IMG/VR virus record: IMGVR_UViG_3300021962_000668
Coordinates: 1 to 23,551 of that record
Length of the DNA: 23,551 bases
Source of the DNA: a virus
Reading direction: 5' to 3' (one strand)
Below are positions 4,903 through 7,234 of the stretch, piece after piece. Position 1 is the stretch's first letter, and each line of letters opens with the position of its first letter. Under the pieces are notes generated by a model that was not told the DNA's origin, searched no databases, and saw only the letters and a list, made by a program, of their open reading frames with translations. A program made the translations under genes and the position numbers.

Positions 4903-5814
4903 ATGGCTATTTCACGCGCACAGCTCCTTAAGGAGCTTCTGCCCGGTCTGAACGCCCTGTTCGGTCTGGAATATGCTCGCTATGGCGAAGAGCATAAGGA
5001 AATCTACGACACCGAAACGTCTGAACGTTCGTTCGAAGAAGAAACCAAGCTGTCGGGCTTCTCGGCTGCTCCGGTTAAGAACGAAGGTTCGGCCATTGCG
5101 TATGACAATGCGCAGGAAGCTTGGACGGCTCGCTACAACCACGAAACCATTTCTTTGGGTTTCTCGCTGACGGAAGAAGCGATTGAGGACAACCTCTACG
5201 ACTCTCTGTCTTCGCGTTACACCAAGGCTCTGGCTCGTGCCATGGCGTACACCAAGCAGACCAAGGCTGCGGCGACTCTGAACAACGGCTTCGACACCGA
5301 TTATCCCGGTGGCGACGGCCAGCCCCTGTTCAGCGCTTCGCATCCGCTGGTCTCCGGTGGCACTAACTCGAACATCCCCGCCACCCCTGCCGACCTGAAC
5401 GAAACCAGCCTCGAAGCTGCTGTCATTCAGATCGCTGCGTGGACGGATGAACGTGGTCTGCTGATTGCGGCGAAGCCGCGTAAGCTGATCGTGCCGCCGA
5501 GCCTGATGTTTGTTGCCACCCGCCTGCTTGAGACCGAACTGCGTGTCTCGACTGCGGACAACGACATCAACGCCATCAAGTCGAACGGTTCGATCCCGGA
5601 GGGTTACGCTGTTAACCACTTCCTGACCGACACCGACGCTTGGTTCCTGACGACGGATGTTCCGAATGGTCTGAAGCACTTTGTCCGTTCGCCCATGGCG
5701 AATTCGATGGACGGTGACTTCGACACCGGCAACGTCCGTTACAAGGCCCGCGAGCGTTATTCGTTTGGGTGGAGCGATCCTCTGGGTATGTATGGATCAG
5801 AGGGGGCGGCTTGA
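4903..5814 (+). CDS. Major capsid protein (HK97-fold, gpT-like)
   Basis: This is the shell protein. At 303 residues it is in the normal range for HK97-fold capsid proteins. An N-terminal helical region (LLKELLPGLNALFGLEYA) is followed by an E-loop-like charged segment with SERSFEEETKLSGF, then FSLTEEAIEDNLYDSL and RYTKALARAMAYTKQTKAA, typical of the spine helix. The C-terminal part contains PPSLMFVATRLL, a P-domain strand pattern, and ends in a compact RYSFGWSDPLGMYGS motif that looks like a natural terminus. AAGGAG precedes ATG at good spacing. Codon choice is highly biased: the first 18 of 22 Gly codons are all GGT or GGC, and no ATA, CTA, AGA or AGG occurs, which fits very high expression. 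That bias breaks in the last 15 codons (see findings). A nuclease gene follows. Confidence 0.87.
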   Translation: MAISRAQLLKELLPGLNALFGLEYARYGEEHKEIYDTETSERSFEEETKLSGFSAAPVKNEGSAIAYDNAQEAWTARYNHETISLGFSLTEEAIEDNLYDSLSSRYTKALARAMAYTKQTKAAATLNNGFDTDYPGGDGQPLFSASHPLVSGGTNSNIPATPADLNETSLEAAVIQIAAWTDERGLLIAAKPRKLIVPPSLMFVATRLLETELRVSTADNDINAIKSNGSIPEGYAVNHFLTDTDAWFLTTDVPNGLKHFVRSPMANSMDGDFDTGNVRYKARERYSFGWSDPLGMYGSEGAA

Positions 5815-5867
5815 CAACTCACGGATAACTCCATACAAAGTTCCTCAATAGTCTTGGGGAGGTTAGT

Positions 5868-6710
5868 GTGGTTTATACCGAGTGTAGTTACGCTGGCTGC
5901 GGCAACCCTGTGTTTTCTACGGGGATTTGTCGGAAACACTACGAACGGGAGCGGCTGGAAACAGCCGCTCCTTGTTCTATTCCGCAGTGTGCGAACAAGG
6001 CGTACAGAGGCACCCTATGCGGGCACCACTACCGGGAAGAGCGCAATGCGGCGCATCCACCTTGCACAGTACCTAATTGCGGGCACCCCCAGAAGACATT
6101 AAAATCAGGGTTGTGCGAAAGGCATCTATTCCGTTTTTCTCGCCACGGGTCTTTGGAACAGCCCCGTCGCCCAGATTGGGGCTCCCGCGAGTCCCACCCC
6201 CTCTACCAAACGTGGTATTGGCATAAGCGCGTTAAGGGTGGCCTTTGCCCCAAATGGCAGACAGATTTTTGGGCGTTTGTTACCGTTGTAGCACCTAAGC
6301 CCGGGGGCTGCTCCCTGCGGAGGCTCCGCGCAAACGAGCCTTTAGGGCCGGATAACTGGTTCTGGAAAGAGCCAATTCAAAGCGAAAACGGGGCTGACCG
6401 CGCACGTAAGCAGCGGGTGTACAACCCCCGGGCAGCTAAGAATTCTGACCTAAAAAAGATGTACGGCATAACCGTAGATGACTTTGACCGGATGGCGCAC
6501 GAGCAAAACTACTGCTGCGCAATATGCCACCGGCAAGAAACCTCCGTGGACAAGTTGGGGTTACCCCGCCGCCTAGCCGTAGACCACTGCCATACAACTG
6601 GCAAAGTACGCGCCCTACTATGCACAAACTGCAATAAATCCCTTGGGGGGTTTAAAGACGACCCCCGTTTGCTTAGGGAGGCGGCGGCGTACCTAGAACG
6701 GCATCACTAA
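5868..6710 (+). CDS. Free-standing HNH / endonuclease VII-type homing nuclease with three zinc knuckles
   Basis: A 280-residue DNA endonuclease, probably a homing enzyme that spreads its own gene. Three repeated zinc-binding units come first: C6-C11-C21-H24, C36-C41-C51-H54 and C66-C71-C83-H86. A middle domain, about 110-168, has HPLYQTW, a central Cys/Trp patch and GPDNWFW, the pattern seen in DNA-binding regions of many phage HNH proteins. The C-terminal part, about 195-280, matches the T4 endonuclease VII/HNH fold: C217-x2-C220, VDHCH with D239, H240 and H242, then C252-x2-C255-N256. The start is GTG with a strong GGGGAGG at 5856-5862. It uses ATA, CTA and CGG codons absent from the capsid gene. 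It separates the capsid gene from the next structural gene. A Holliday-junction resolvase is a less likely alternative, given the zinc knuckles and location. Confidence 0.85.
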   Translation: MVYTECSYAGCGNPVFSTGICRKHYERERLETAAPCSIPQCANKAYRGTLCGHHYREERNAAHPPCTVPNCGHPQKTLKSGLCERHLFRFSRHGSLEQPRRPDWGSRESHPLYQTWYWHKRVKGGLCPKWQTDFWAFVTVVAPKPGGCSLRRLRANEPLGPDNWFWKEPIQSENGADRARKQRVYNPRAAKNSDLKKMYGITVDDFDRMAHEQNYCCAICHRQETSVDKLGLPRRLAVDHCHTTGKVRALLCTNCNKSLGGFKDDPRLLREAAAYLERHH

Positions 6711-6832
6711 CCCTTGCGCCACCTGTGTTTTCCTATACACTCCGGCGCAACTAGGGTTCCCCACCCGTACCGACTGACCTAGCAGACGTAGTAGAGACGG
6801 TATGGGGTTGTGCTACTACACGGAGAAATTCA
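6711..6832 (+). promoter_or_regulatory. Structured intergenic region: hairpin plus putative pseudoknot before the 6833 gene
   Basis: This is the longest non-coding stretch in the window (122 bp). Three complementary pairs are visible. First, TTGCGCC at 6714-6720 pairs with GGCGCAA at 6744-6750, with an inner GTGT/ACAC (6725-6728 and 6737-6740). Second, CCCGTACCG at 6764-6772 pairs with CGGTATGGG at 6798-6806 (9 bp with one G-U). Third, GTAGTAG at 6788-6794, inside the loop of the second stem, pairs with CTACTAC at 6813-6819 outside it, giving an H-type pseudoknot. The ribosome site GGAG at 6822-6825 follows three bases later and ATG is at 6833, so the fold could affect initiation of the next gene. 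No U-tract follows any hairpin, so it is not a standard terminator. Function is inference. Confidence 0.45.
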
Positions 6833-7234
6833 ATGGCGCAGACTACTTTCAGCGGACCGGTTGTGTCCGATAATGGCTTTGTTGGTAATGTCACCGGCAA
6901 TGCGACTGGTACCGTTACGGGTACTGTTGTTCAGCCGGTTTCGGCTGTTGCCGCTACGGGTACTAACCTTGCCACTGCCGCTGCTTTGTCGGCTGGCATT
7001 AACGTTGTTTCGGCTGCTGACGGTACCAAGGGCGTGAAGCTCCCCGCTGCGGTGGCTGGCACGACCATTACGGTTTACAGCTCGGTTGCCTCCAGCGGTC
7101 TTGTGGTCTACGCGAACACCGGAGACACCATCAATGGCAGTGCGTCGGTGACGATGGAAGGTCAGACGTGGTTGCAGGCTGTTGCGACGACTGCTGATGT
7201 CTGGCTGACGACGATCTTCACTGCCAACACCTAA
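6833..7234 (+). CDS. Small beta-rich virion structural protein (133 aa)
   Basis: The protein is made almost entirely of Ala, Val, Thr, Gly and Ser. The N-terminus (TTFSGPVVSDNGFVGNVTGN) has the Gly-spaced Val/Thr pattern of fibrous virion proteins. The C-terminal half, from about residue 48, forms a compact predicted beta domain (GVKLPAAVAGTTITVYSS, GDTINGS, WLQAVATTADVWL). I associate this domain with head or tail decoration-type proteins of uncultured phages but cannot name a Pfam family with certainty. The start follows GGAG at 6822-6825 and lies just behind the putative pseudoknot. Codon choice is again GGT/GGC-biased, like the capsid gene. A head-fibre or decoration role is inferred. Confidence 0.68.
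   Translation: MAQTTFSGPVVSDNGFVGNVTGNATGTVTGTVVQPVSAVAATGTNLATAAALSAGINVVSAADGTKGVKLPAAVAGTTITVYSSVASSGLVVYANTGDTINGSASVTMEGQTWLQAVATTADVWLTTIFTANT

Follow-up and report, generated by a model that had tools for sequence, protein, structure and literature searches.

What is the role of the short intergenic stretch that lies immediately upstream of a virion gene in this phage? The window, by which we mean the whole viral DNA analysed, is positions 1-23,551 (23,551 nt) of the IMG/VR record IMGVR_UViG_3300021962_000668. It is a phage late-gene region with genes for a portal protein (27-2219) and a GroES-like protein (2403-2813), followed on the plus strand by a major capsid protein of the Mu gpT type (4903-5814; Pfam Phage_capsid_4, 7.2e-15, and Mu-like_gpT, 8.7e-11; PHROG 371, major head protein), an endonuclease VII/HNH protein (5868-6710; Pfam Endonuclease_7, 5.4e-22) and the putative controlled gene (6833-7234). 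The product of the 6833 gene has the N-terminus MAQTTFSGPV and appears to be a virion protein of the cement or decoration type. It has no Pfam match, and in phage DSL-LC04 the gene in this slot carries the annotation 'cement protein'. Sequence searches of the PDB with the capsid and 6833 proteins as queries returned nothing useful. The capsid gene is the upstream neighbour of the RNA element described here; the nuclease gene is inserted between the two, is not part of the RNA, and is missing from this gap in most relatives, for example in L019. Within the nuclease gene, a perfect 11-bp hairpin with a GAAA loop (5947-5972) weakly resembles a stem of the Moco riboswitch and is probably a mere hairpin.

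The element, on the plus strand, can be described as composed of five paired parts that are found in relatives, P0, P1, P1a, P2 and P3. P1 is a 9-bp helix in which CCCGTACCG (6764-6772) pairs with CGGTATGGG (6798-6806), with one G-U pair at 6767/6803. It closes a loop that contains the inner hairpin P1a (6774-6785), made of CTG (6774-6776) and CAG (6783-6785), and the 5' strand of P2. The loop of P1a (6777-6782) holds the segment CCTAG (6778-6782), which pairs with the 5' strand of P0, CTAGG (6751-6755). P2 consists of 6 bp between UAGUAG (6789-6794) and 6813-6818, and this second strand is also the 6-nt loop of the 3-bp hairpin P3 (6810-6821; GTG 6810-6812 with CAC 6819-6821). As judged from sequence comparison, the element is a pair of interlocking pseudoknots, one formed by P0 with the P1a loop and the other by P2 with the P3 loop. 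The Shine-Dalgarno sequence GGAGA (6822-6826, plus strand) abuts the 3' end of P3. The unpaired bases A6773, A6786-C6787 and A6795-G6796-A6797 are invariant, and so is G6782, the last base of the P0 partner.

The original prediction had recognized part of this structure. Its H-type pseudoknot corresponds to the interlocking helices P1 and P2, both backed by covariation in the alignment described below; this fold is confirmed and strongly conserved, yet makes up just one half of an RNA with two pseudoknots, helices P1a and P0 having been missed. The three complementary pairs on which it was built, TTGCGCC (6714-6720) with GGCGCAA (6744-6750), the 9-bp pair of P1, and GTAGTAG (6788-6794) with CTACTAC (6813-6819), are all present in the window, and the proposed loops of 15, 3 and 6 nt agree with the sequence. 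The distance from the second pseudoknot strand to GGAG (6822-6825), given as three bases, is two. Of the seven pairs assigned to the second stem, six are conserved, while the seventh, 6788/6819, is not, C6819 pairing instead with G6812 in P3. The first hairpin (6714-6750, plus strand) does not belong to the structure: it is lineage-specific, seen only in the window and the near-identical record L004/L025, and lies outside the conserved RNA, in sequence that arrived together with the endonuclease gene. Its region overlaps the P0 strand, AACCCT (6709-6714) being complementary to AGGGTT (6753-6758), and one may speculate that in read-through transcripts of the window this hairpin could compete with P0.

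Relatives of the element were collected for comparison. A 16-mer from the element pulled the first contigs, in which it lies directly 3' of the capsid gene and the nuclease gene is absent. The canonical set, obtained with a context-blind core pattern and by searching with the 6833 product and the capsid protein as queries, comprises at least 118 unique elements. The core pattern fixed P1a and the bases flanking the loop and of P2 prescribed only the terminal U and AG, leaving P1, P0, P3 and the three middle bases of P2 free; among 118 canonical elements, L161 alone was admitted through its P2 complement. The alignment, A2, has 110 rows (the window and 109 others) drawn from the 118 unique canonical-core elements listed. 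Excluded beforehand were L004, the element of which is identical to that of the window, and L161, L211, L212, L216, L217, L246 and L267, which have a different 3' half; a filter for duplicates and boundaries accounts for the remaining shortfall.

In A2, 98.1% of the 2310 cells of P1, P1a, P2 and P3 are paired. P1 has two-sided changes at all nine of its pairs with 95.8% of cells paired, and P2 at three of six pairs with 99.8% paired. P1a is 100% paired, its middle pair being U-A in 99 and C-G in 11 of the 110 sequences. P3 is 100% paired as well, a figure valid for the canonical class only because the seven copies with a different 3' half were left out; it reads GUG/CAC, with GCG/CGC in 6/110 and GAG/CUC in 1/110 (middle pair U-A in 103 rows, C-G in 6, A-U in 1). 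Altogether, two-sided changes occur at 14 of the 21 pairs, in 310 cells compared with a shuffled mean of 49.8. The covariation score is 0.416 versus 0.149 for shuffled and at most 0.091 for slid alignments, and in this check, which the original prediction had called for, none of 500 shuffles reached the observed value. G-U combinations are far more frequent than A-C in P1 and P1a taken together (51 versus 7 cells), all 51 falling in P1 because P1a is always Watson-Crick; this excess points to selection on the plus-strand RNA and not on the DNA or the minus strand. Folding energy, the other measure proposed, stood out from shuffled sequence for the 151 nt of 6700-6850 (z -2.2) but not for the 79-nt element itself, 6751-6829 (z -0.79). 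Energy alone is uninformative here, as expected, since the folding program cannot score pseudoknots.

The spacer between P0 and P1 varies in length and MAFFT misplaces P0, so P0 was tested not by alignment columns but by comparing the complement of each element's own loop with that of permuted loops. In 111 of the 118 listed elements the upstream sequence contains the exact complement of that element's loop, compared with a mean of 71.7 and a maximum of 81 in 2000 permutations, and complements to other loop types were found in 23 of 708 trials. All seven misses have the loop GCCCAG and CTAGGG upstream, with one mismatch. A general descriptor composed of P0, P1, P1a and P2 was also applied to capsid genes found by protein alone: among the matches listed, it fits 56 of 74 nonredundant flanks, versus 3/74 after shuffling. 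Among the 18 missed flanks, L108, L109, L110 and L149 carry the canonical core with a mismatch in P0 or P2, L140 and L165 carry by eye an element of the sister class described below, and the other twelve may have inserted genes or be short. One of the 56 matches, L180, may be due to chance. Over 464 loci (3.57 Mb, both strands) the descriptor gave 333 matches versus 19 in shuffled sequence. There are at least 265 distinct matches, of which at least 226 have a capsid gene upstream and 15 more lie near a locus start; the 24 (of 265) with no capsid gene and not near a locus start look mostly like chance.

A sister class, retrieved by a pattern of its own, has at least 99 distinct copies. Its P1, left free in that pattern, is 97.3% paired, compared with a shuffled maximum of 79.1%, and the P0 5-mer is present in all 99 listed copies. 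P3 in these copies is CUU/AAG (55), CUC/GAG (32), ATC/GAG (8), TTT/AAG (2) or CTT/GAG (2). Since AAG or GAG begins the Shine-Dalgarno sequence AAGGA or GAGGA, the ribosome site of the sister class is itself an arm of P3. Across 241 elements of all classes, the Shine-Dalgarno sequence overlaps P3 in 114, a figure inflated by the one-base shift allowed at the P3 border; it overlaps P2 in 8, follows P2 by 0-5 nt in 112 and was not seen in 7. In L161, L166 and L150, P2 itself covers it. In L217, L267 and L320, P3 is CCTT/AAGG with the Shine-Dalgarno sequence in the arm and the rest is canonical, as in a bridge to the sister class. A capsid gene lies upstream of 111 of the 118 canonical copies listed and of 95 of the 99 sister copies listed, the remainder being near locus starts. 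R1, a covariance model of the canonical class, also matches bridging types, among them L130 (5.7e-6), L123 (0.004) and HTVC023P (1.7e-4). It gave no match in most of the sister-class loci searched at E up to 10, for which reason a shared ancestry of all classes is probable rather than established. The element appears once per phage, R1 having a single match in each of the 12 records matched among 19 searched.

The element is attached to the gene downstream of it. The distance between the capsid match and P0 is at most 150 nt in 179 of the 226 listed copies and more than 400 nt in 41, mostly because of inserted genes. By eye, the longest frames of these genes are HNH-like, GIY-YIG-like, acetyltransferase-like or other, and the gap between capsid gene and element has the look of an insertion hot spot (for example in L121, L139, L209, L234, L384 and L400). 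In these 41 of 226 listed copies the element adjoins the downstream start codon despite the changed upstream context. The descriptor scan itself required a nearby start codon, and this adjacency is therefore backed independently by the listing of flanks and by the downstream frames. As the element is kept at the downstream start, and as the gene there is annotated as cement protein in DSL-LC04, we regard it as a leader of the downstream gene. Nearly all downstream proteins of the canonical class start with MAxTTFSGPV or similar and then have very different remainders, and a few downstream proteins start in the MGFATHLGPW or MALSTTQSIW type. The N-terminus MAxTTFSGPVxSxNGF (6833-6880 in the window, and relatives) is likewise joined to very different protein bodies, as if leader and first codons formed a cassette before exchangeable decoration domains.

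In the relatives, a separate transcript would start at the element. In 64 of 75 flanks the capsid gene is followed by a terminator-like hairpin, versus 1 of 75 when shuffled, and among 113 distinct elements 85 have a -10-like hexamer whose end is 7-10 nt from the start of P0, with a peak at 7; the same four distances hold about 17% in shuffled segments. From these two features together, the mRNA of the relatives probably begins at P0. The window has no promoter-like site that we could find and no terminator between the capsid and nuclease genes, so this part of the reading rests on the relatives.

We propose that the element is a cis-acting 5' leader whose two interlocking pseudoknots gate translation of the cement gene (6833), and consider this probable. 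The sequence comparisons show its helices, its nature as a plus-strand RNA, its single copy, its fixed place and its attachment to the downstream gene; the regulatory steps are our interpretation. P3, being too short with its 3 bp to be stable alone, would depend for its formation on the docking of its loop through P2. In the folded state the leader would then hide or crowd the Shine-Dalgarno sequence and restrain binding of the 30S subunit, and unfolding would permit initiation. In the canonical class of the window the masking would be indirect, since the Shine-Dalgarno sequence sits just after P3 and not inside it. The output of cement protein, which is probably needed in a fixed ratio to the capsid protein, could thereby be set or switched, and in relatives the RNA is predicted to form the extreme 5' terminus of a separate late mRNA that follows the terminator behind the capsid gene. 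Candidate triggers are a small molecule or a protein, perhaps the capsid or cement protein itself; there may also be no trigger. Among the readings originally offered, a translational switch at the 6833 gene is the best supported, by the covariation, by the position on the ribosome site and by the Shine-Dalgarno sequence inside the structure in the sister classes; that part of the interpretation stands, without the first hairpin and without the link to self-splicing and the nuclease. A packaged or decoy RNA, also among those readings, drew no support from these comparisons. A bolder version, which we advance only tentatively and hold to be the less likely case, is that this is a new and widespread class of aquatic-phage RNA that senses capsid assembly or host state and gates cement synthesis through a docked hairpin that hides the Shine-Dalgarno sequence. 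If true, virion stoichiometry would be controlled at the level of RNA, and a cultured member of the abundant HTVC023P-type pelagiphages would share this control.

The alternative that competes most directly with translational gating is a constitutive leader that protects the mRNA: the 5' end would be tied up in P0, host ribonucleases would find no single-stranded entry from which to begin degrading an abundant late mRNA, and translation would be unregulated. The predicted start of the transcript at P0 in relatives (85/113), the capacity of the 5' strand to pair with the element's own loop (111/118 listed elements) and a downstream product of the virion structural type all speak for it. However, it leaves unexplained why P3 and P2 are placed on the Shine-Dalgarno sequence, why this sequence is an arm of P3 in the sister class, and why the unpaired A6773, A6786-C6787 and A6795-G6796-A6797 are invariant; moreover, no promoter-like site was found in the window. 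We consider it unlikely as the whole explanation, and nevertheless a serious rival or a second role. Somewhat less likely again is a strict sensor, a riboswitch or an operator for a protein such as free capsid or cement protein, that would switch cement synthesis with the state of assembly. Such a sensor would account for invariant unpaired bases within a covarying double pseudoknot, for a Shine-Dalgarno sequence within or beside the last helix and for a controlled gene that comes after the capsid gene, and T4 gene 32 offers a phage precedent for a pseudoknot operator, as a section of PMC3014915 describes. On the other hand, proteins of three different-looking types are encoded behind this one RNA, which argues against binding of the downstream product unless a part that they share is what binds.

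The remaining explanations have much lower probability than translational gating. That the element is a processing or self-cleavage site separating the capsid and cement messages would suit its highly conserved core and its position between two virion genes, but neither the window nor 18 relatives have an Rfam match at the gathering threshold, no model matches the window's element at E up to 10, and the relatives need no processing because they already have a terminator between the two genes; we find it highly improbable. Barely credible is the suggestion that these are the remains of a self-splicing or mobile element that arrived with the nuclease gene. A nuclease gene does lie directly upstream in the window, and in many relatives this gap holds nuclease-like genes of other kinds, but most relatives have no such gene (in 179 of 226 listed copies no more than 150 nt separate the element from the capsid match), and the element stays with the downstream gene while varied genes are inserted upstream. 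The capsid flanks, the downstream frames and the copies that lack the nuclease gene all contradict such a relic of the nuclease insertion. Chance complementarity in a short intergenic stretch can practically be dismissed: the folding energy of the element alone is ordinary, but covariation, conservation, the P0 loop test, the capsid flanks and the sister class all contradict it.

The element occurs in the cultured Pelagibacter phage HTVC023P and in the sequenced phage DSL-LC04. In a genome collection, the core pattern had 27 matches versus about 30 expected by chance (hand arithmetic). The full structure is present in five of the 27, each of them a metagenome-assembled contig, and hence no host is inferred. 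These five bacterial bins, L319, L320, L331, L336 and L345, are labelled Chitinophagales, Maricaulis, Dehalococcoidia, Alphaproteobacteria and Chloroflexi, and the copies are perhaps phage contigs binned with bacteria. Another possible pseudoknot lies upstream of a TTFSG/TTFTG-type gene in the pelagiphages HTVC027P (L292:4384-4575) and 023Pt_psg01 (L301:3217-3550); by eye, CCTAG/CTAGG covers the Shine-Dalgarno sequence there, and R1 gave no match.

Conserved pseudoknot control of a structural gene is hardly known in DNA phages. The element is a two-pseudoknot class with strong covariation, absent from our Rfam 15 scans, with at least 226 distinct copies beside capsid genes, and this RNA is retained by hundreds of freshwater and marine phage fragments. 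It makes the balance of capsid and cement protein in phages testable, and the RNA, being small and well defined, lends itself to structural studies. A literature search of the main texts of papers free of subscription found no published description of it. With Rfam 15, the window and 18 relatives gave no match at the gathering threshold, hence the element belongs by model to no riboswitch or ribozyme class known in Rfam. A lax scan of window positions 5815-6860 gave three weak matches, all outside the element, and every match in a lax scan of L290 fell far short of the gathering score.

The SAM-II and preQ1 riboswitches are compact H-type pseudoknots that mask the Shine-Dalgarno sequence. The element resembles them in having a compact H-type pseudoknot beside or covering this site. 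It differs in the hairpin within its first loop, the loop of which pairs upstream, in the presentation of a P2 strand in the loop of P3, and in having no Rfam match.

A closer neighbour by position is Mu-gpT-DE (RF03012), which is filed in Rfam as an sRNA gene. At E up to 10 its model found nothing in the window record, and it exceeded the cut-off in one of 19 records, that of Roseobacter phage CRP-902 (L293:3399-3451, 72.3 bits), in which R1 gave no match. Like the element, which in relatives directly follows such a gene, Mu-gpT-DE lies between a capsid gene of the Mu gpT type and the next gene and reaches into the ribosome site of the latter. However, it has 53 positions of a different sequence, drawn as an outer 4-bp stem and one 5-bp hairpin, and by eye its hairpin loop can pair downstream, whereas the P1a loop of the element pairs upstream. 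At least two different-looking RNA folds thus occupy the slot between the capsid gene and the next gene in related phages. In a passage of PMC7657543, Mu-gpT-DE is named only as a member of a set of five families that differ between two database versions.

The nearest functional parallel is the operator of gene 32 in phages T4, T2 and RB69, which, like the element, is a pseudoknot in a phage mRNA leader, and which controls translation of the gene that follows (described in a section of PMC3014915). According to the same section, this pseudoknot is placed 67 nt ahead of the start codon, and gp32 that has bound to it goes on to cover the ribosome site; the T4-type gene 32 pseudoknot may be, as that 2010 review puts it, the sole viral example in translational autoregulation. 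The gene 32 operator is a single pseudoknot, whereas the element has two pseudoknots placed directly on the Shine-Dalgarno sequence.
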